In this document: one piece after another, positions 2,842 to 12,901 of the stretch | Layout of the letters: the number at the start of each line of letters is the position of its first letter | Position numbering within the stretch: position 1 is the stretch's first letter | Virus record (IMG/VR): IMGVR_UViG_3300048919_000305 | Coordinates: 1 to 45,641 of that record | Reading direction: 5' to 3' (one strand) | DNA length: 45,641 nt | From: a virus | Position numbers and translations under genes: made by a program | The notes under the pieces: model-generated | What the model was told of the DNA's origin: nothing | Seen by the model: the letters and a program-made list of their open reading frames with translations, nothing else | The model's database searches: none

Positions 2842-3144
2842 TTATGCGGCGATAGTTTCGGGGCTTTCAGGCGGTGCGGTATCCGCCCGGCGCGTATGGC
2901 GCTTGCGCAATTGGCGCCCGAGCATATCCCAATAGGGATAATCAGGCCGCAAGGTCTTCGGGGTAATGCGGGGGTCGTCGCATTCGGCTACCACAATCGC
3001 CACATATTGAAACGGCATATAGGCTTTGCGGTGATGCCAAAAGGTAATGGCATCGTAACTAAGTCCGAGAATATCGGCCAAACCTTGCCGGCCGCCGAGA
3101 ATCCGCTCGGCAAGGCGGTACGTCTGATACGCGCTTTCGTACAT
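2842..3144 (-). CDS. YdaS/Cro-like DNA-binding regulator
   Basis: This 100-residue protein has one helix-turn-helix: ILGGRQGLADILGLSYDAITFWHHR at about residues 15-39. It is followed by the LRPDYPYWD element that is typical of YdaS/Cro-type phage regulators, and a basic tail (LRKRHTRR). The family binds operator DNA as small dimers and acts as antirepressor, antitoxin or Cro. It is the first gene of the leftward replication operon and lies next to the divergent control region. The ATG at 3144 is chosen because GAGG lies nine bases upstream; a GTG at 3159 is the alternative. It is the best candidate for the protein that reads the nearby decamer repeats, by position only. Confidence 0.75.
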   Translation of the reverse strand: MYESAYQTYRLAERILGGRQGLADILGLSYDAITFWHHRKAYMPFQYVAIVVAECDDPRITPKTLRPDYPYWDMLGRQLRKRHTRRADTAPPESPETIAA

Positions 3145-3188
3145 GGTGGCGGGCCTCACTGGCAGGTGATAGCAGTAAATTTCACTGA

Positions 3189-3242: not shown

Positions 3243-3342
3243 TGGCCGTTACTGGCCGTTACTGGCCGATTCTGTCCCGTGCTGGCCGTTACTGGCCGTA
3301 TCTGGCCGCCCCTGTCCTCTACTGGCCTGTACTGTCCGCGTC
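3243..3342. repeat. Ten-unit decamer array TGKCCNNNNC (control region)
   Basis: Ten consecutive 10-bp units fill 3243-3342 with no gap. They begin TGGCC seven times and TGTCC three times (3273, 3313, 3333), and nearly all end in C. The array sits between the divergent rep and recT operons. A period of exactly 10 bp puts every unit on about the same face of the helix, as expected for a protein that binds cooperatively side by side. The last four units (3303-3342) recur almost exactly near the integrase gene. Confidence 0.85.
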
Positions 3343-3533
3343 GTTTGCATCACTTTGAGATTTTTCCCCGCGCCCGTAGACGTGACTTGGCCTAGCATCA
3401 AATCCCCGGCCGGCAACCCACGAACCCGCGCCGCGAGCCTGAACAAAACCCACCCGCAAGCGCCGCCAAGCACGGTGCGCCACCACGCGCGCCCATGGCC
3501 TCGTCTTGCCCTTCGCACAGAGAGGGATTCGCT
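3343..3533 (+). other. recT leader, no gene seen
   Basis: This stretch lies between the decamer array and the recT start. It carries no plausible reading frame with a ribosome binding site and no strong hairpin with a T-run. It ends with GAGAGGGA, a strong Shine-Dalgarno sequence for recT. It is probably the untranslated leader of the rightward operon. Confidence 0.4.
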
Positions 3534-4679
3534 ATGCATCAGGTTTCGACTATCCCGGCCGATGGGCCGATTTCACACGTACCGGCCGTGGCCCGCCTGC
3601 CGATCTTTGAGCCCGGCGCGATGCAACACGCGCTGTCGATTGCCGAGGCCATGAGCAAGGCCCCGGGGCTCGTGCCGCAATTCATGCTCAACAATCCGGG
3701 CGTGTGTCTGGCCGTAACGATTCAGGCGCTCAATTGGCGCCTCGATCCGTTCAGCGTAGCCAAAGAAGCATGGGTCGAGCCGAAATCCGGCCGGCTCAAT
3801 TACACGGCCCGCACGTACGCCTCCGCCGCGCAAGCCCTCGGCGCGCTGCGTGGTGATCTCGATTTCGAAAACCTCGGGGATTGGGATCGCATCAGGGGGC
3901 GCTTTGACAAAAGCGAGCCCACGAAACCCAAACGCCTTTGGTCCGATGAGGATGAGCGCGGCCTCGCGGTGTCGTGCATCGGCACGCTTGCGCGCTCGGG
4001 GAAGACCGTCGAAAAAACGGTGTACCTCGCGGACATTGCTATCCGCAATTCGCCCCTGTGGCACACCGAGCCCGCGCAGCAGCTTTCGTACCAAGCGTGC
4101 GTCCGGTGGATTCGCCTCTACGCCCCTGCCGTGTTGATGGGGGTCAACCTCGGCGGTAACGACAATCCGAACATGCGCGACATGGGCGAGGCGCAACAGG
4201 TGCCACGCACCGACGAGGAACGCCGTGAGGCCCTCGACGCGGCCCTCAGCCCGATCAAGGCGCGCGTTACGGGCGAGCGCCTGCCGAGCCTGCCCGAAGT
4301 CCTCACGCATATCCAGATGGCCGATACGATGGCCGCCCTTGAGCGTTGCATTCAGATGGCGCAGCGCCTGCCGACCGAGATCGACAAGGCCACGGCCCGG
4401 CAGGCGTACCGCGAGAAAAACGCCGCGCTGAAAGGCCCGAGCACGAGCGCGCCAGCGCCCGAGCGTGCGCCCGATCCCGTCGCCACCGAGGCGCCCGAGA
4501 ACAGCCCGCGCACGAACGCGAACGCGCCCGTCTTCACGTACGCCGAGGTGCGCCATCAGCTTGAGCACGCCGAGACCGTTGAGGCCCTCGACGATGCCGC
4601 CAACCTCATCGGGGGCGTGGAGAACGCCGAGCACCGCGAGGAATTGGCCGCGCTCTATCACTCGTTGCGGGGGGAATGA
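3534..4679 (+). CDS. recT: RecT-family single-strand annealing protein
   Basis: The protein (381 aa) carries the RecT signature in its first half: a region around MQHALSIAEAMSKAPG, the AVTIQALNWRLDPF segment, and GRLNYTARTYASAAQ. The C-terminal third is alanine/proline/glutamate-rich, then helical. RecT-like proteins bind single-stranded DNA and anneal complementary strands during phage recombination. The ATG at 3534 is used because GAGAGGGA lies six bases upstream; a start at 3495 has no such signal. It leads the rightward operon and is coupled by ATGA to the next gene. No RecE, lambda Exo or YqaJ-type exonuclease partner is visible nearby, which is unusual. Confidence 0.85.
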   Translation: MHQVSTIPADGPISHVPAVARLPIFEPGAMQHALSIAEAMSKAPGLVPQFMLNNPGVCLAVTIQALNWRLDPFSVAKEAWVEPKSGRLNYTARTYASAAQALGALRGDLDFENLGDWDRIRGRFDKSEPTKPKRLWSDEDERGLAVSCIGTLARSGKTVEKTVYLADIAIRNSPLWHTEPAQQLSYQACVRWIRLYAPAVLMGVNLGGNDNPNMRDMGEAQQVPRTDEERREALDAALSPIKARVTGERLPSLPEVLTHIQMADTMAALERCIQMAQRLPTEIDKATARQAYREKNAALKGPSTSAPAPERAPDPVATEAPENSPRTNANAPVFTYAEVRHQLEHAETVEALDDAANLIGGVENAEHREELAALYHSLRGE

Positions 4680-4867
4680 TGCTCACCGATCAACACGAGA
4701 TGAGGTCGCTTACAGAGCTTGCCGTGAAGCTACACCGCACCGCGTGCGCGTCAGGTGAGAGCGAAGTAGCGACCGTTTCGGCAAACGACTTGCGGCGCGC
4801 AACGTGCGCGCTCTTGCTGGCGCTCGGCTTCGCTCAGGGTGTTCACGCCATGCGGGGGGAGATATGA
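4676..4867 (+). CDS. Small hypothetical protein
   Basis: A 63-residue, mainly helical protein that I do not recognise. Its start overlaps the recT stop (ATGA) and its own stop overlaps the next start in the same way, so it is translated in series with recT. The segment LRRATCALLLALGFAQG is moderately hydrophobic but too short and too polar at its ends to call a membrane helix. Confidence 0.6.
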   Translation: MMLTDQHEMRSLTELAVKLHRTACASGESEVATVSANDLRRATCALLLALGFAQGVHAMRGEI

Positions 4868-5064
4868 CAAAACCCCTGCTAGACGTATCCCGAGCGCTCA
4901 CTCTCGAAACCGCGCTGAAACTTGCGCACGGGCTCGTGCTCAATGCGCGCGTGGCCCATGCCGAGGGCCGCGCGACTATCGACGTCCCGCTCGATGTGGT
5001 GGACGTGATGGTTAGCGCGTTGCTCATCCTCACCGATGCCGACCCCATGGAGGGCGGATCATGA
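4864..5064 (+). CDS. Small hypothetical protein
   Basis: This 66-residue protein starts MTKPLLDVSRALT at an ATG that overlaps the preceding stop and has GGGGGAG seven bases upstream. It is predicted all-helical. No family is recognised. Overlapping ATGA junctions on both sides make it a true member of the recT operon. Confidence 0.65.
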   Translation: MTKPLLDVSRALTLETALKLAHGLVLNARVAHAEGRATIDVPLDVVDVMVSALLILTDADPMEGGS

Positions 5065-5330
5065 AACATGAATTTCACCCCGTGTCTGTCACCATCAAGC
5101 GCGGGCCGATGAACGACGAGACGGTCGTACTCGCAAACGCGGTGCGTGTATTCACGCATCGCCGTTCGCAGCGTTCCATATGCGTCATTGAGCCGCCCAC
5201 GGGAAGCCACGACGAACCGCTCATTATCGTGATTCCCCTCGGGGATAACGCGGCCGGCAAACCATGGATGACCGTCGATCTCTCGGCCTTGCTCGACCTG
5301 TACGAACGCGCGACAGGGGGGCAGCCATGA
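5061..5330 (+). CDS. Hypothetical protein, beta-rich
   Basis: An 89-residue protein with alternating hydrophobic residues (VTIKRG, TVVLANAV, LIIVIPLG) that suggest a small beta sheet, then a C-terminal helix (SALLDLYERAT). Not recognised. It overlaps both neighbours by ATGA. Confidence 0.65.
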   Translation: MKHEFHPVSVTIKRGPMNDETVVLANAVRVFTHRRSQRSICVIEPPTGSHDEPLIIVIPLGDNAAGKPWMTVDLSALLDLYERATGGQP

Positions 5331-5761
5331 GCGAAGCCACCACGCATAACGGGGTCGAGAACGTCCGGCGCAACCAGCTTACGCACGCGCAGATGTACCA
5401 GCTTTGCAAGATGGTCGACGCCGAGTACAGGACCGCCCACCTTACCGACGATGGGTTCGCCATGCGCGTGCAAAAGCGTTTGCCGTTCCCTGTCACGGGT
5501 TCGAACGTTGGGCGAGCACGCGTGATCCTCGGCATCGAGGGCCGGCGCATGCCGCACCAGACCGACCGCTCGCGCGACACCTCAAAGCTACATCGGGAGG
5601 TCCGCACCGTGGCCCGCGTGTGCCTGCACATCGTCGATGAATTGGGCCTCGATTTGCGGCCCGATCAGATGGCCGCGCTCAAACGCATTTGCCATTACGA
5701 GGTCGATGGCGAAGACGTGGCGCAGCAGCCGGCCGAGGGGGTAGCCCGTGAAAACAATTGA
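5327..5761 (+). CDS. Hypothetical protein, possible nucleic-acid binding
   Basis: The ATGA start at 5327 gives 144 residues; the in-frame extension upstream lies inside the previous gene and is not counted. The segment LPFPVTGSNVGRARVILGI (about 50-68) could form a helix-turn-helix and the net charge is positive around it, so DNA binding is possible. The C-terminal half is helical and acidic. No named family is recognised. Confidence 0.6.
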   Translation: MSEATTHNGVENVRRNQLTHAQMYQLCKMVDAEYRTAHLTDDGFAMRVQKRLPFPVTGSNVGRARVILGIEGRRMPHQTDRSRDTSKLHREVRTVARVCLHIVDELGLDLRPDQMAALKRICHYEVDGEDVAQQPAEGVARENN

Positions 5762-5966
5762 TGATGTGCCGAACGAAGTGGTCGAGACGCTGGAGACTTT
5801 TCTACGGGCGATGGCCCAAATGCACCCGCGCGAGGACGTTGTACTGGCCCTCTTGTATCACGGCGCGGCAGGGGTACAGGTGCATTGCGGGACCGCACAG
5901 CTACGCGCCACGCTCACCGAAATCCAAACCCTTATGGGGACTACCGAAAAGGACAGCCCGCAATGA
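5748..5966 (+). CDS. Small hypothetical protein
   Basis: A 72-residue protein with a GTG start, overlapping the previous gene by 14 bases. It is predicted as two helices followed by a short beta hairpin (GVQVHCGTAQLRATLTEI). Not recognised. The GTG is chosen because it is the first start in frame and GTAGC precedes it only weakly, so initiation probably depends on coupling. Confidence 0.55.
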   Translation: MKTIDDVPNEVVETLETFLRAMAQMHPREDVVLALLYHGAAGVQVHCGTAQLRATLTEIQTLMGTTEKDSPQ

Positions 5967-6190
5967 GTGATCCCGAAATGGTTAGCCGCGCGTGGCGCGA
6001 CGCGATCCCGATGTTTGATCTCATCGAGGACGACATGCCACTAGCCGAGATGATTTTCCTTTCTGGCATCGGGGCCGCATTTGACATGCTGGCCGAGTGT
6101 ATCGATTTCGATCAGGTGAGCGCCGTTGTGCTCGCCGCCCGCGAGCAGGCGCTCGCGCGTTCCCTTGAGCTTGAGGACGAAAATGCTTGA
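5963..6190 (+). CDS. Small acidic hypothetical protein
   Basis: This 75-residue protein begins MSDPEMVSRAWRDAIP at an ATGA overlap. It is strongly acidic (IEDDMP, ELEDENA) and helical. Small acidic early phage proteins are often inhibitors or DNA mimics, but there is no direct evidence for that here. Confidence 0.6.
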   Translation: MSDPEMVSRAWRDAIPMFDLIEDDMPLAEMIFLSGIGAAFDMLAECIDFDQVSAVVLAAREQALARSLELEDENA

Positions 6191-6677
6191 ACTATTTGAA
6201 CGCAAATGCAAGTTGCGCAGCGCGAACAATAAGCGAGAGATTCACGGGGATACGAGCGTGCTAGCTATCTATCTCTCGTTTGAATGGATCGCGCCCAATA
6301 CCGAGCTTGAGCGCCTCGGGCGCGGGTTGCTGGCCGCGCTCTACCGTAAGGGCGAGTTGCCCGTCGAAGACCTGCCCGGCATCGACGCGAAGTTGACCGC
6401 GTTGAAGTTTCCCACGCTGTCCGTCCTCACGTTTGAGGATGCGCATGAGCACATGCTATTCACCATCCATCAGGGCGGCCCAGGTCATGACTTGATCTTG
6501 GACGAATGCCTCGTTGACTGCGTGAGCATCGGCCCCAAGGATGGCGGCACGTCGACCGTGAGGTTCCGTGTGCGCACGCATCCGAAGGACAGTAAGACGG
6601 CCGGCATGCTGTGCAATTTGCTCGTGAATGGCGACATTACGGTCAGCGTGGCCGCCATGGAAAGCGAGGCCGCGTGA
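6183..6677 (+). CDS. Hypothetical early protein
   Basis: A 164-residue protein starting MLELFERKCKLRSANNKREIHG. The N-terminal half contains alternating hydrophobic residues (SVLAIYLSFEW); the C-terminal half (STVRFRVRTHP, GDITVSVAAME) looks like a beta sandwich. I do not recognise the family. It overlaps the upstream gene by eight bases and the downstream gene by one (TGATG), typical of this operon. Confidence 0.65.
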   Translation: MLELFERKCKLRSANNKREIHGDTSVLAIYLSFEWIAPNTELERLGRGLLAALYRKGELPVEDLPGIDAKLTALKFPTLSVLTFEDAHEHMLFTIHQGGPGHDLILDECLVDCVSIGPKDGGTSTVRFRVRTHPKDSKTAGMLCNLLVNGDITVSVAAMESEAA

Positions 6678-6919
6678 TGATCGGCCGCGCGGTTTACACC
6701 CTGCCGAACGGGTTGCAGATCGAGGGCACGTCAGCGGCCATCGATTGCGTGCGCCTGTTGATCGATGGCGAGCACGCGCCGGCCTCAACCGAACGCACCG
6801 CGCGCCTCATGACGAGGATTGAGGCAGCGGGGTTTGAGTTTGACGGGCTCGGCCACATCACCGGCAAGCTATCCAATTTTCGCGCGCTCTTGTCGAGCGT
6901 CGAGGGAGAAAAATCATGA
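6677..6919 (+). CDS. Small hypothetical protein
   Basis: The 80-residue protein starts MIGRAVYTLPNGLQIEG; a GTG three bases upstream would add one codon. It has a short beta hairpin, then helices. Not recognised. It is coupled to the flanking genes through TGATG upstream and ATGA downstream. Confidence 0.6.
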   Translation: MIGRAVYTLPNGLQIEGTSAAIDCVRLLIDGEHAPASTERTARLMTRIEAAGFEFDGLGHITGKLSNFRALLSSVEGEKS

Positions 6920-7530
6920 TGATGTATCGCATCACCGAAGACGAATTGCACCGCCTGTCCGCGCAACAGGTTTTCAATTACGCGCTGCGCCACCTCATGG
7001 CGATGGGGCGTCGTTGCGCCAATGAGCGTGGCGATTGCCTCTACCGGGACGGCAAGGGCGGCGCGTGCGTCGTGGGCGCTTTCATCCCCGATAGCCTGTA
7101 CTCGCGCGCGTTCGAATTTAAAAGCGTGCGCACGCTGTACGCGTTCGCAAATTCCCCCACGCTCGCGGCGTTCATCGTGCGGCATGGCCCGCTGTTGGAA
7201 AAGTTGCAGCAGGTACACGACAGTATCCACCCGAGCGGATGGGTCTGGGCTATGGGGCGCGTGGCGCAGATTTTCGCGCTCGACGAGCGCGTGCTTGAGG
7301 ACTACAACGCCCTTGAATCGTCCGACCCCTTGGAGCGTGTCGTCGTGGCGGAAAACCGCACGCCGCAATACTTTGGCCCGCATGACCCTATCGAGGCCAC
7401 GGTCACGCACACGCACTATGCAATGCCCCGCGTGGTGGCGATGACGAGCAAGATGGCGGCCCTCAGTTTGCTCGGGGCAAAGGGCATCGCGCCGAAGGTT
7501 CCCGAGCCGCACCGCCCCGTCTACTCGTGA
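6916..7530 (+). CDS. Hypothetical protein with CxYRDGKGGACVVG motif
   Basis: At 204 residues this is the second largest gene of the operon. It has a strong ribosome binding site (GAGGGAG) and an N-terminal helical part. Around residues 42-56 it contains a CLYRDGKGGACVVGAF motif, a pattern I associate with a recurrent phage protein family of unknown role; the two cysteines may pair or bind metal. The middle contains a long helix (VRHGPLLEKLQQVHDS). No enzymatic motif is certain. Confidence 0.65.
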   Translation: MMMYRITEDELHRLSAQQVFNYALRHLMAMGRRCANERGDCLYRDGKGGACVVGAFIPDSLYSRAFEFKSVRTLYAFANSPTLAAFIVRHGPLLEKLQQVHDSIHPSGWVWAMGRVAQIFALDERVLEDYNALESSDPLERVVVAENRTPQYFGPHDPIEATVTHTHYAMPRVVAMTSKMAALSLLGAKGIAPKVPEPHRPVYS

Positions 7531-7778
7531 GAACGCTACACACCATCCAGCACTATCGGTGCGTCTCGTGCGGGGAGTCCTTCGGCCTCTCTAACGTGTG
7601 GTCAATGGCGGGCCTGCGCGAGACGCAAGTATCAGGCGTGTGTGAAAAATGTTTAGTTGCACGAATGAAGGGAAACCATGAGGACGGAAATCATGACAAC
7701 GAAACGGGGCGGGCGCCCGCGCCGCTACCCGTTGCCCCCGCCGAAAAAAGCCCGGGCAACGCCAGCGAGCCAGACTAA
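7527..7778 (+). CDS. Small zinc-ribbon protein
   Basis: The 83-residue protein uses a GTG start that overlaps the previous stop. Two CxxC pairs (YRCVSCGES and GVCEKCLVAR) are spaced about 25 residues apart, as in a zinc ribbon. The C-terminal 35 residues are polar and overlap the next gene by about 100 bases, so either this tail or the next N-terminus is likely poorly conserved. The function is unknown. Confidence 0.55.
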   Translation: MRTLHTIQHYRCVSCGESFGLSNVWSMAGLRETQVSGVCEKCLVARMKGNHEDGNHDNETGRAPAPLPVAPAEKSPGNASEPD

Positions 7779-8022
7779 GCCGCCGCCCGAGCCGCCAGCA
7801 CCCGCACCAGCGGGGCCAGATGAGGCCGAGGCGCTTGAGCAAAAGGATTTGCTTACCAAGGATGAGGCCGCCGAGTTCCTGCGCATCTCGCCGCGTTCTC
7901 TGCGCCGCCTGCGCAGCGATGGCACCGGCCCGAGGGCGGTACAGGTGACGTCGCGCCGCGAGTTCTACAGGCGCGAGGATTTGGAGGAATGGTTACGGGA
8001 GAGGACAGGCGCCGAGGTGTGA
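7678..8022 (+). CDS. Excisionase-like MerR/AlpA-type HTH protein
   Basis: The protein (114 aa from 7678, or 109 from the ATG at 7693) has a proline-rich N-terminus (about 20-45) and a winged helix-turn-helix: LLTKDEAAEFLRISPRSLRRL, then GTGPRAVQ and YRREDLEEWL. This is the arrangement of AlpA/excisionase-type regulators (HTH_17). It lies at the end of the rightward operon and converges on the integrase, so it may be the recombination directionality factor. Assignment to excision rests on position plus fold type. The upstream start has AGGG five bases before it. Confidence 0.7.
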   Translation: MRTEIMTTKRGGRPRRYPLPPPKKARATPASQTKPPPEPPAPAPAGPDEAEALEQKDLLTKDEAAEFLRISPRSLRRLRSDGTGPRAVQVTSRREFYRREDLEEWLRERTGAEV

Positions 8023-8035
8023 GGCGCCCCATGAG

Positions 8036-8064
8036 AAAGGGCCGCATTGCGCGGCCCTTTTTTT
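8036..8064 (+). terminator. Intrinsic terminator between recT operon and int
   Basis: A hairpin with stem AGGGCCGC/GCGGCCCT and a five-base loop is followed by eight T residues on the plus strand. It ends the rightward operon. The minus strand also has a short T-run, so the hairpin probably acts on integrase transcripts too. Confidence 0.85.
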
Positions 8065-9238
8065 ACATCGTGGCGAACATCTTGTTGACCCGTTCGCGCT
8101 CGTGCGCCGGGTTGATGTGGCCGTAATTCTCATCGATCATTTTGAGGCTCGTCCCTGCGAGCCGGGACACCGTGAGCGTGTCCAAACCCATTTCCAGCAC
8201 GTGCGAGATTGCCGTATGCCGCAAGTTGTAAAGGCAGAATTCGGGCGGCAGACCTGCATGCTTGGCGACGCGCTTTACTCGCACATTCCAATCGTTCGTC
8301 GTCCAGCGCTCACCGTTGCACGTGAACAGGGGCGCGGCCGGGGTCTTGTCTTTGCAAAGGCGGCGCAGCAAATTGGCGGCGCGCTCATTGAGTTGGACCG
8401 AGCGCATGCCCGTCTTGCTCACGTGCTCTTTGATGTGAACGTACCCGGCGCGTTGATCGAAATCCGCCACGTTGAGGCCCGTAAGTTCACCGGGGCGGAA
8501 CGCGGTAAGCAGCATGGCGTCCATGAGATCGCGCAGATCGGTAAGCCCGAGCGCCTCAGCCGAGGCCAGCGCGGCGGCGCGTTGCTCGGGCGTGAGGTAC
8601 AGGGTGCGGCTTGCCTGAATGCCGCCCCACGCGCCGAGCTTCGTCCACGCGCCGTCAGATTCCACCCAATGCATTTCAAGAAACGCGTAGTTAAGCGCGG
8701 CCTTGATCGTCGTCCACTTGCGGGTGGCGGTGGCGTTGGCGCGGCGCACGCTTTCCGGGTCTAGCGGGTCTTTGGGGTTCGGCAGGGCCAGCCGGAACGC
8801 GATCATTTCTTGCCGCGTGAGGGATACCAGCGCGCGGCGCGCGAAAGTGCCATCGGGGGGGACCATCAGATCGAGCGAGCGCTTTGCCGTGTCGTGAGCT
8901 TTGGCGCCATCCGCAGAGAGCTTGTGCGCGAGATAGGCGTCGATGGCATCGGCCACGGTATGCGCGCCCGTCACGCCCTTATTGACCCGCTTGGCGAAGT
9001 CACGCGCCAGCGTGGCCGCGCGGGCGAAGCGATGTTCGGCGGGGATTTCCGAGAGGGTGCCTAGCGCCTCGTGCTTGGTCTTGCCGCTCGTTTCCTCGGT
9101 CACGCGGGCAATCCACGTTTGGCCCGTGGCGAGGATGCGCACGCCCACATAGAGGCGGGGCTCGATGCGTTGAAAGTAAGGCGCCGGGCGGGCGTCCAGT
9201 GCGTTGCGGCGGGCGGTAGTGTCGATCTGTTGGGACAT
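8063..9238 (-). CDS. int: Tyrosine recombinase (phage integrase)
   Basis: The 391-residue protein has the integrase layout: an arm-binding/core N-terminal region, then the catalytic domain with R248 (TAFRPGELTGL), K275 (SKTGMRS), R340 (YNLRHTAISH) and the nucleophile Y372 (ENYGH). The usual first histidine of the HxxR box is Y337 and the usual LGH histidine is replaced in LAGTSLKMI; both changes are common in this phage branch. It catalyses insertion of phage DNA at attB and, with a directionality factor, excision. The ATG at 9238 has AGGA seven bases upstream. The decamer repeats lie within 45-160 bp upstream of its start, where arm-type or operator sites would be expected. Confidence 0.95.
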   Translation of the reverse strand: MSQQIDTTARRNALDARPAPYFQRIEPRLYVGVRILATGQTWIARVTEETSGKTKHEALGTLSEIPAEHRFARAATLARDFAKRVNKGVTGAHTVADAIDAYLAHKLSADGAKAHDTAKRSLDLMVPPDGTFARRALVSLTRQEMIAFRLALPNPKDPLDPESVRRANATATRKWTTIKAALNYAFLEMHWVESDGAWTKLGAWGGIQASRTLYLTPEQRAAALASAEALGLTDLRDLMDAMLLTAFRPGELTGLNVADFDQRAGYVHIKEHVSKTGMRSVQLNERAANLLRRLCKDKTPAAPLFTCNGERWTTNDWNVRVKRVAKHAGLPPEFCLYNLRHTAISHVLEMGLDTLTVSRLAGTSLKMIDENYGHINPAHERERVNKMFATM

Positions 9239-9283
9239 GGGCGGTTCCTGTGCGTGTGAAAGTTCTGTAAAGAATCTTTGTTT

Positions 9284-9333
9284 TGGCCGGTACTGGCCGG
9301 TACTGGCCGCCCCTGTCCTCTACTGGCCGGAAA
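9284..9333 (+). repeat. Decamer array upstream of int, plus orientation
   Basis: Five consecutive 10-bp units (start 9284, 9294, 9304, 9314, 9324) follow the same TGKCCNNNNC pattern as the array at 3243-3342. The 26 bases 9303-9328 are identical to 3302-3327. Confidence 0.85.
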
Positions 9334-9355: not shown

Positions 9356-9395
9356 GGTTCGGACAGTATAGGCCAGCACAGGACAGGGGAGGCCA
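9356..9395 (-). repeat. Decamer array upstream of int, inverted
   Basis: Read on the minus strand from 9395, four consecutive units fit the decamer pattern (TGG, TGT, TGG, TGT starts). They match the order and most bases of 3303-3342. Together with 9284-9333 they form an inverted pair of arrays about 22 bp apart. Confidence 0.8.
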
Positions 9396-9543
9396 AAATA
9401 CCCCCCGTTTTCGCGCTTGTACGGCACGAGTGGCGGGAGGTGCCACCTACCCGCTAGGCCATACAGGGCAACGGGTAGAGCCGCATAGTACCAGATGTTT
9501 TTTTGGCTCATGTAAAGATTTTGCCAAGAAACGTGCGCGGCCC

Positions 9544-9606
9544 GCTAAACCGCCCGGGGCGGAGTTTAGGGGCTGTAAACCGCTATGGGCGGTGTTTAGC
9601 AGCCAG
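9544..9606. repeat. Two tandem imperfect palindromes (TAAACCGC)
   Basis: Two adjacent hairpin-capable sequences share TAAACCGC on the left arm and GCGG-T/A-GTTTA on the right. The second is extended by GGCTG/CAGCC at its base. They look like a pair of operator half-sites or a structured RNA; there is no T-run directly after them. Confidence 0.5.
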
Positions 9607-9610
9607 CTAC

Positions 9611-9655
9611 AGGCAAAAAAAAGCCCCTGCCGTGCCGGGGTGGCTAGCAAGGGGC
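9611..9655 (-). terminator. Intrinsic terminator, leftward
   Basis: On the minus strand a GC-rich hairpin (GCCCCTTGC pairing with GGCAGGGGC, one bulge) is followed by eight T residues. It would stop a leftward transcript that begins right of 9655, although no gene lies there. Confidence 0.6.
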
Positions 9656-11791: not shown

Positions 11792-12901
11792 ATGAGAAAG
11801 CTAGACGAGATGATCCGTGCGGCACGAGAGGCCGCCGAACAGATTTGCATACCGAGATACGTTTTAGAGGGCCTGCTAGGCGAGGCCGAGAAACAAGCCC
11901 GTAGCGCCGCCGAAATGGCCGCCCTGTGGGATGGCCTCAAAGGACCTGAATACGTGGCGCCACGGGCCGCCACACCAGCGCCAGCCCCACGGCCGGCAGC
12001 GCCGCCAGAACCCAAGATTGCCCGCGCCTATGTCAGCCCCCCGGGACCGCCCGTGGATGACCGCAAGTTGGCGCAGTTAGCGCAGCGTTTCACCGTGAAG
12101 GGTTTGGACAAACTCAACACCGCCCCGGCCCCGTCGCCAGCACCAGCGCCCGACCTGGACCCGGTTCCTGAAACCCCGAGCAACGTTTCGCCCCTGCGCC
12201 ACTACGCGCATTTTTCCGAGGACATTGCGCGGGAGTTTCCCGAGGCCGTGCTCGACGCCATCCTCAGCGGGACGGCACCGTGGCGCGCGTGGCGCGATTA
12301 CTTCGGGGGCGCGGTGCGTAGTGTGGCCGAGGCGTGCGCCGTTGATCCGAGCCGCGTCTATCAGTTCGAATTGAAGGATTGGCGCGCCGGGCGCCAGCCA
12401 CAGGCCCACCACTTGCAAACGATGGCCGAGCTTTTTGGCGTGCCCCTCGAATGGATTCAGGCCGAGAGCGTGAAGCCCGCGCCGATGGCCCGCCCCACGG
12501 TCCAACAGCCGCCGAGTCACGCCTCACAGATCGCGCAAAGCGCGATTGCCAAGCCCCGCCACAAGCCCGAGCCCCCGCCCCCCGAGTTTCAGCGCGACAA
12601 GGGCTTGCGCGTTGACCTCGTGGGCGTCACCGCAAAGCAATTTGCCGAGATAGCCCGCGCCGCGCGCGACACTGGCTTAGACCTCAATCATGTTCAGTTC
12701 CGCGAGAGCACCGCGCCGCGCGTGACCGCTCGTGTCGTGGTGGCCGTCGAGCGCGGATGCAAGGGGCTCGCGGCTAAGGCCGTCAAGGTGCAAACCGGCG
12801 CAAACGGCGCCGCCCTGCATTGGGTCCACGGGTCTATGTCCTCGATTGTGGAGACACTGCGCGGCATCGAGAACGAACCCGAAGCGAGGGCGCAAGCATA
12901 G
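11792..12901 (+). CDS. XRE-like HTH protein with Pro/Ala-rich linkers
   Basis: The 369-residue protein has an N-terminal helical segment, a proline/alanine-rich linker (about 55-130), and a central domain. That domain (about 160-215) has a helix-turn-helix of the XRE type: SVAEACAVDPSRVYQFE, then LQTMAELFGVPLEWIQ. A second proline-rich linker (about 220-265) leads to a C-terminal domain of about 100 residues with beta segments (LRVDLVGV, RVTARVVVAVER). It is the largest accessory protein. It might act as the missing repressor or as an operon regulator, but it has no LexA-type peptidase. No named family is certain. Confidence 0.6.
   Translation: MRKLDEMIRAAREAAEQICIPRYVLEGLLGEAEKQARSAAEMAALWDGLKGPEYVAPRAATPAPAPRPAAPPEPKIARAYVSPPGPPVDDRKLAQLAQRFTVKGLDKLNTAPAPSPAPAPDLDPVPETPSNVSPLRHYAHFSEDIAREFPEAVLDAILSGTAPWRAWRDYFGGAVRSVAEACAVDPSRVYQFELKDWRAGRQPQAHHLQTMAELFGVPLEWIQAESVKPAPMARPTVQQPPSHASQIAQSAIAKPRHKPEPPPPEFQRDKGLRVDLVGVTAKQFAEIARAARDTGLDLNHVQFRESTAPRVTARVVVAVERGCKGLAAKAVKVQTGANGAALHWVHGSMSSIVETLRGIENEPEARAQA

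Follow-up and report, generated by a model that had tools for sequence, protein, structure and literature searches.

The operators of excisionases, or recombination directionality factors (RDFs), are the described systems closest to the repeat array reported here. Apl of 186 has seven sites at pR-pL and five at attP, arranged as direct repeats 10-11 bp apart; its binding to a single site is weak and its cooperativity strong, and three adjacent operators are needed (PMC7498355). Cox of P2 is an oligomer-forming protein that acts both as excisionase and as repressor (PMC7498355). RdfS and BldC form head-to-tail oligomers with approximately one DNA turn per monomer, and the RdfS filament, in which each monomer spans about 10 bp, binds to attP as well as to the promoter of its own gene (PMC11963761). 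In KplE1, attL contains a tRNA core and two TorI blocks with GTTCG, GATCG and GTCCG, the second of which lies next to the -35 element, and P'1 of the IntS P' sites overlaps the -10 element (PMC2951348).

The array occupies positions 3243-3342 (+ strand) of a 45,641-nucleotide virus sequence (IMG/VR record IMGVR_UViG_3300048919_000305; this whole stretch is called the window) and consists of ten gapless TGKCCNNNNC decamers. A preliminary description had been unable to match it to a described operator system, but such systems exist in the RDF/excisionase operators of 186 Apl, P2 Cox, RdfS and TorI. Judging from sequence and comparative analysis, the array is probably a remote operator of the phage RDF, a predicted filament-forming HTH_17 protein (7678-8022) that would also serve att.

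The control-region array

The ten contiguous TG[GT]CCNNNNC units of the preliminary description were found exactly at 3243-3342 on the + strand. They are non-palindromic direct repeats spaced about one DNA turn apart, with a C at the last position in 10/10 units, and runs of such units were no longer than two in 200 first-order Markov randomisations of the window, against the ten observed. The strict alternation of TGG and TGT starts claimed for the right half does not hold, since position 3 reads G G G T G G G T G T along the array and alternates in units 7-10 only; nor is it conserved, the order being T G G T G G G G G T in the relative IMGVR_UViG_3300009991_000006.

The array is intergenic and heads two operons. 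To its left lies the gene of a YdaS-like Cro-type HTH protein (2842-3159, - strand; the start may be 3144), the first of a leftward operon that also encodes a replication initiation protein (1651-2829, - strand; phrog_2509, 3e-17). The YdaS-like protein matches the phrog_35 repressor (1.4e-5) and, below the Pfam cut-off, PF15943 (3e-5), and its AlphaFold model is of low confidence (mean pLDDT 63). Iteron-like repeats of period 12/24 around CGTTACGY are present within the replication-protein ORF (2235-2326). To the right of the array lies the gene of a RecT annealing protein (3495-4679, + strand; likely start ATG at 3534; PF03837, 8.5e-10), with which a rightward early operon begins (3534-8022): twelve + strand ORFs that overlap or directly adjoin one another, the last of which is the RDF candidate. 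A role of the array at the early-gene switch is plausible. A scan for sigma-70-like promoters gave none next to the array.

The preliminary description had proposed conservation in relatives as a check, and this bore the array out. The sole close relative found, IMGVR_UViG_3300009991_000006 (46.6 kb; integrase 85% and RecT 92% identical), keeps the ten-unit array as well as the 5 + 4 units at att described below. The array is identical at 94/100 positions, and the flanks at fewer: 74/98 (76%) on the left and 30/48 (63%) on the right, together 71% versus 94% (P ~6e-6). Differences within the array affect position 3 (G/T) and positions 6-10, leaving T1, G2, C4 and C5 unchanged. Across the 19 decamers of both phages, substitutions number 0/76 at these four positions versus 10/114 elsewhere (P = 0.006), and TG-CC is present in 38/38 units. 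Between the array and recT, a 55-bp block (3391-3445) is identical at 53/55 positions in the relative, above its neighbours, and is possibly a recT promoter or leader element. A search of 399 Burkholderiaceae genomes returned five matches to the decamer pattern; these are perfect simple repeats and none is a relative of the array.

A second set of decamers at the attachment site

A scan of both strands of the phage revealed one other decamer set, of 5 + 4 units, which the preliminary description had missed. It lies directly upstream of the gene of the tyrosine integrase (8063-9238, - strand; PF00589, 1.7e-14; phrog_1, 9e-41). Block 2 (9284-9333, + strand) has five decamers, the last ending in A instead of C, and is separated by 22 bp from block 1 (9356-9395, - strand), whose four decamers face it; both are conserved in the relative (locus L022). 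In a weight-matrix scan for three phased units, the control array and the att set score 32-39 and the rest of the window at most 9, a value that itself comes from the reverse strand of the att array; high-scoring units in phase are thus confined to these two places in the window.

Block 1 lies beside a putative att core, TGCCGTACAAGCGCGA (9411-9426, - strand), which corresponds to codons for VPYK in a Bug/TTT receptor gene. Because TGCCGTACAAGCGCGA aligns with the core TGCCCTACAAGGGGA of a Cupriavidus element, the att decamers would sit between the core and int. A possible proximal Int arm-type site, TCTTTACA (9262-9273, - strand), has the position of class B in the integrase family and shares an 8-bp word with the distal arm (P = 0.065), which lends weak support to Int arm sites in the window; an 11-bp-spaced pair, TCTTGGCAAAATCTTTACA (9511-9529, - strand), is weakly indicated as their distal counterpart. 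Past the distal att arm, repeated CCGCTAAACCGCCC / CCTAAACTCCGCCC elements occur at 9540-9620 and are largely kept in the relative.

Decamer repeats in the integrase family

Searches for close DNA relatives in the phage collection by blastn and megablast, for the integrase, YdaS-like and HTH_17 proteins in phages by tblastn, and with two near-identical integrases as queries in genome contigs found nothing. In plasmids, tblastn identified a 42% identical integrase (H21) on a plasmid of Cupriavidus oxalaticus (locus L046). This integrase is carried by a small element that includes a capsid gene and interrupts a Bug/TTT receptor gene. The element has a copy of the 15-bp core TGCCCTACAAGGGGA at each end, and 10-bp-phased repeats with TRTCG instead of TGKCC lie between core and int. 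A genome scan with three integrases, now including the Cupriavidus one, yielded 80 further relatives, mainly from Beta-, Gamma- and Alphaproteobacteria.

In the 200 bp upstream of int of 78 relatives, 33 GTCC pairs have a spacing of 10 bp (chance ~0.3) and 10 a spacing of 20 bp, and other spacings are close to zero, 11 bp excepted. By element, a GTCC 10-bp pair occurs in 24/78 (control 0.3) and an RTCC 10-bp pair in 45/78 (control 2.2), with control expectations taken from ten control pieces per locus. The usual plan of the family, read towards int, comprises a tRNA-gene core, a GGAC block, an AT-rich stretch, a GTCC block, a -10-like box, two copies of an 11-bp-spaced element-specific repeat (e.g., TTTCCGTACTATTTCCGTAC) and the int start. 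The two blocks of the family usually point apart; those of the window point at each other, and in the Cupriavidus element, the nearest relative, both point in the same direction, with the motif TGTCG.

Integrase arm sites are required on both att arms, while those of an RDF may be on one. The far end could be located through the duplicated core in 14 small elements of the family, whose proximal arms have six RTCC decamer pairs in all and whose distal arms have none. In 11 of the 14, the 11-bp element-specific repeat recurs beside the distal core, with up to 25 bp identical. We infer that the decamers are RDF sites because RTCC is confined to the proximal arm and the 11-bp repeat is on both, and from the precedent of KplE1. 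A remote array was found within 10 kb in no other member of the family, which leaves it to the two phages.

The HTH_17 excisionase candidate

The last gene of the recT operon (7678-8022, + strand; the start may be 7693) encodes a small protein near int that matches PF12728 (5e-11; HTH_17 domain, 43 bits versus a Pfam cut-off of 27) and phrog_66 (1.6e-11), which is described as excisionase and transcriptional regulator. By profile and model, it is the best RDF candidate in the phage. The model has a mean pLDDT of 69 (domain ~80-85), and RdfS is the best match to the predicted fold. Its N-terminal tail of about 50 residues (7678-7840) is basic and Pro/Ala-rich, with an AT-hook-like GRPRR, and is absent from most RDF candidates of the integrase family. 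Small HTH_17/AlpA proteins occur in other elements of the family: a home-made profile matches 39 of the searched loci, among which are a small number of viral ones not belonging to the family and overlapping copies of both phages, and six of these candidates were checked by Pfam. In the PDB, a profile built from the family RDF candidates matches the GIsul2 AlpA-type excisionase, Pukovnik Xis, RdfS and BldC (8c3t, 4j2n, 8dgl and 6ama, respectively).

The RDF and int genes are convergent and separated by a terminator-like hairpin with a T run, GGGCCGCATTGCGCGGCCCTTTTTTT (8039-8064). In the relative, an IS3-like transposase pair (L022 2549-3951) lies between them.

Discussion

The two arrays and their conservation, the repeats on the int-proximal arms throughout the family, the asymmetry of the arms and the presence of an RDF-type gene in an array-headed operon are direct observations, from which we infer that the RDF binds the decamers, forms a filament and regulates with the sign proposed here. 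Each TGKCC decamer would be read by one RDF monomer, and the monomers, head to tail and one per helical turn, would assemble with strong cooperativity into a DNA-bending nucleoprotein filament. At attP, where 5 + 4 sites are predicted between core and int, this filament would promote excision and shut the int promoter. At 3243-3342, it would cover the gap separating two divergent early promoters, one for the leftward YdaS-like and replication genes and the other for the rightward genes from recT to the RDF, allowing autoregulation of the RDF and control of the early lytic genes. The earlier suggestion of a protein polymerising along one face of the DNA fits well with an RDF filament, although an operator of this type has been described before. 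A stronger version is less likely than not: that a strictly sequence-specific excisionase filament, nucleated on the perfectly phased 100-bp array of ten sites, is the main switch between the divergent early operons, either replacing a Cro/CI-type repressor or working alongside one, with prophage excision and early control both governed by a single cooperative filament of DNA-encoded length.

Other readings of the decamers have to be weighed, and the strictness of the TGKCC core, greater than that of most described RDFs' sites, counts against the RDF operator. So do the orientation of the two att blocks, which departs from that usual in the family, the lack of a remote array within 10 kb in other family members and the negative promoter scan. 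The decamers could be arm-type sites for the N-terminal domain of the integrase, with the control array giving Int a remote role as regulator or sink. The repeats adjoin int throughout the family, and three phased sites per block resemble P'1-P'3 of lambda. However, RTCC decamers are missing from the distal arms, where the other, 11-bp repeat is present as on the proximal ones, and in KplE1 the GTCCG-type sites are those of the RDF TorI and the TAAA-type sites those of IntS, so that this reading is unlikely. About as unlikely is the YdaS-like Cro-type protein as binder. Its gene adjoins the array and is kept together with it in the one relative, and YdaS of E. coli CP-933P binds intergenic DNA adjoining the gene that encodes it (PMC8630535). 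Yet palindromes are the usual targets of Cro-type dimers, and 18-bp ones are present in the CP-933P region, unlike the non-palindromic direct repeats of the array. Moreover, the decamers also occur at att, and the motif class tracks the integrase family, in which no YdaS homologue was found; a search of five relatives' genomes for the YdaS-like protein also gave none. The preliminary description had named the YdaS-like protein and the central HTH protein (11792-12901) as binders to try; the HTH_17 protein (7678-8022) is favoured over both because the decamers recur at attP and go with the integrase family, not with YdaS-like genes.

An iteron-like array, or one bound by another regulator, i.e., the replication protein (1651-2829), the central HTH protein or a host factor, is quite improbable: iterons are direct repeats and the array immediately precedes the replication operon, but the copies beside int and the family-wide att repeats would be left unexplained. 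In its favour, large TGGCC decamer arrays exist in an unrelated phage contig, IMGVR_UViG_3300037963_004562, one with 25 gapless units (L004 5147-5396) and three with seven (L021 2028-2097, 2161-2230 and 2276-2345), and neither an HTH_17 protein nor a tyrosine integrase was detected in the 33 kb of this contig; decamer arrays therefore need not always be RDF sites. That the array is a functionless tandem repeat spread by slippage can be given very little credence. Such short tandem repeats do arise in many phage contigs, and of the 41 stretches that a four-unit pattern picked out among viral contigs, most are simple repeats or arrays whose surroundings are unrelated. Against slippage, TG-CC alone is invariant among variable spacers, conservation is higher in the array than on either side of it, and the decamer recurs at att in both orientations. 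One locus with both an array and an HTH_17 gene (L042) was rejected as a parallel case, its TGTCC run being a near-pentamer repeat inside a gene.

The RDF operator reading ties an unusual repeat array to the biology of excisionases and comes with a comparative rule, by which int-proximal 10-bp RTCC repeats are RDF sites and 11-bp repeats shared by the two arms are the arm sites of Int. In a non-exhaustive literature search, this rule appears not to have been drawn before for this integrase family, and it would allow RDF operators and att cores to be predicted from the sequences of many prophages, satellites and islands of proteobacteria. A ten-site array with nine matched att sites would also offer a clean system in which to relate filament length to gene control.

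Comparison with known systems

A dual-purpose RDF operator is of a known kind, and what is new is its length, regularity, strict motif and genomic placement. As with Apl, helical-turn direct repeats are present both at attP and in the early-promoter region, and one cooperative protein is predicted to combine the functions of RDF and transcriptional regulator. Unlike Apl, however, the phage of the window has 9 + 10 sites spaced exactly 10 bp apart within each block, its putative promoters are divergent instead of face to face, and the predicted binder is an HTH_17 winged helix-turn-helix (wHTH) protein, whereas Apl stands apart from other RDFs in sequence. Cox of P2 is likened by description, P2-like promoters also being face to face. 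The closest likeness in att layout is to TorI and KplE1, which share the plan of the int-proximal att arm and a near-identical motif (GTCCG, GTTCG, GATCG). The sites of the second KplE1 block are 2 nt apart within 28 bp, i.e., a 10-bp period, and TorI represses int; KplE1 differs in having five attL sites, and a remote ten-site array is undescribed there (PMC2951348). RdfS of ICEMlSymR7A belongs to the same HTH_17-type wHTH fold family (PMC11963761), but it has no consensus motif, in contrast to the strict one of the window. By profile and fold, the nearest solved structures are Pukovnik Xis (4j2n), the GIsul2 excisionase (8c3t) and Streptomyces BldC (6ama), from which the protein of the window is set apart by its low identity (20-28%) and its N-terminal tail.
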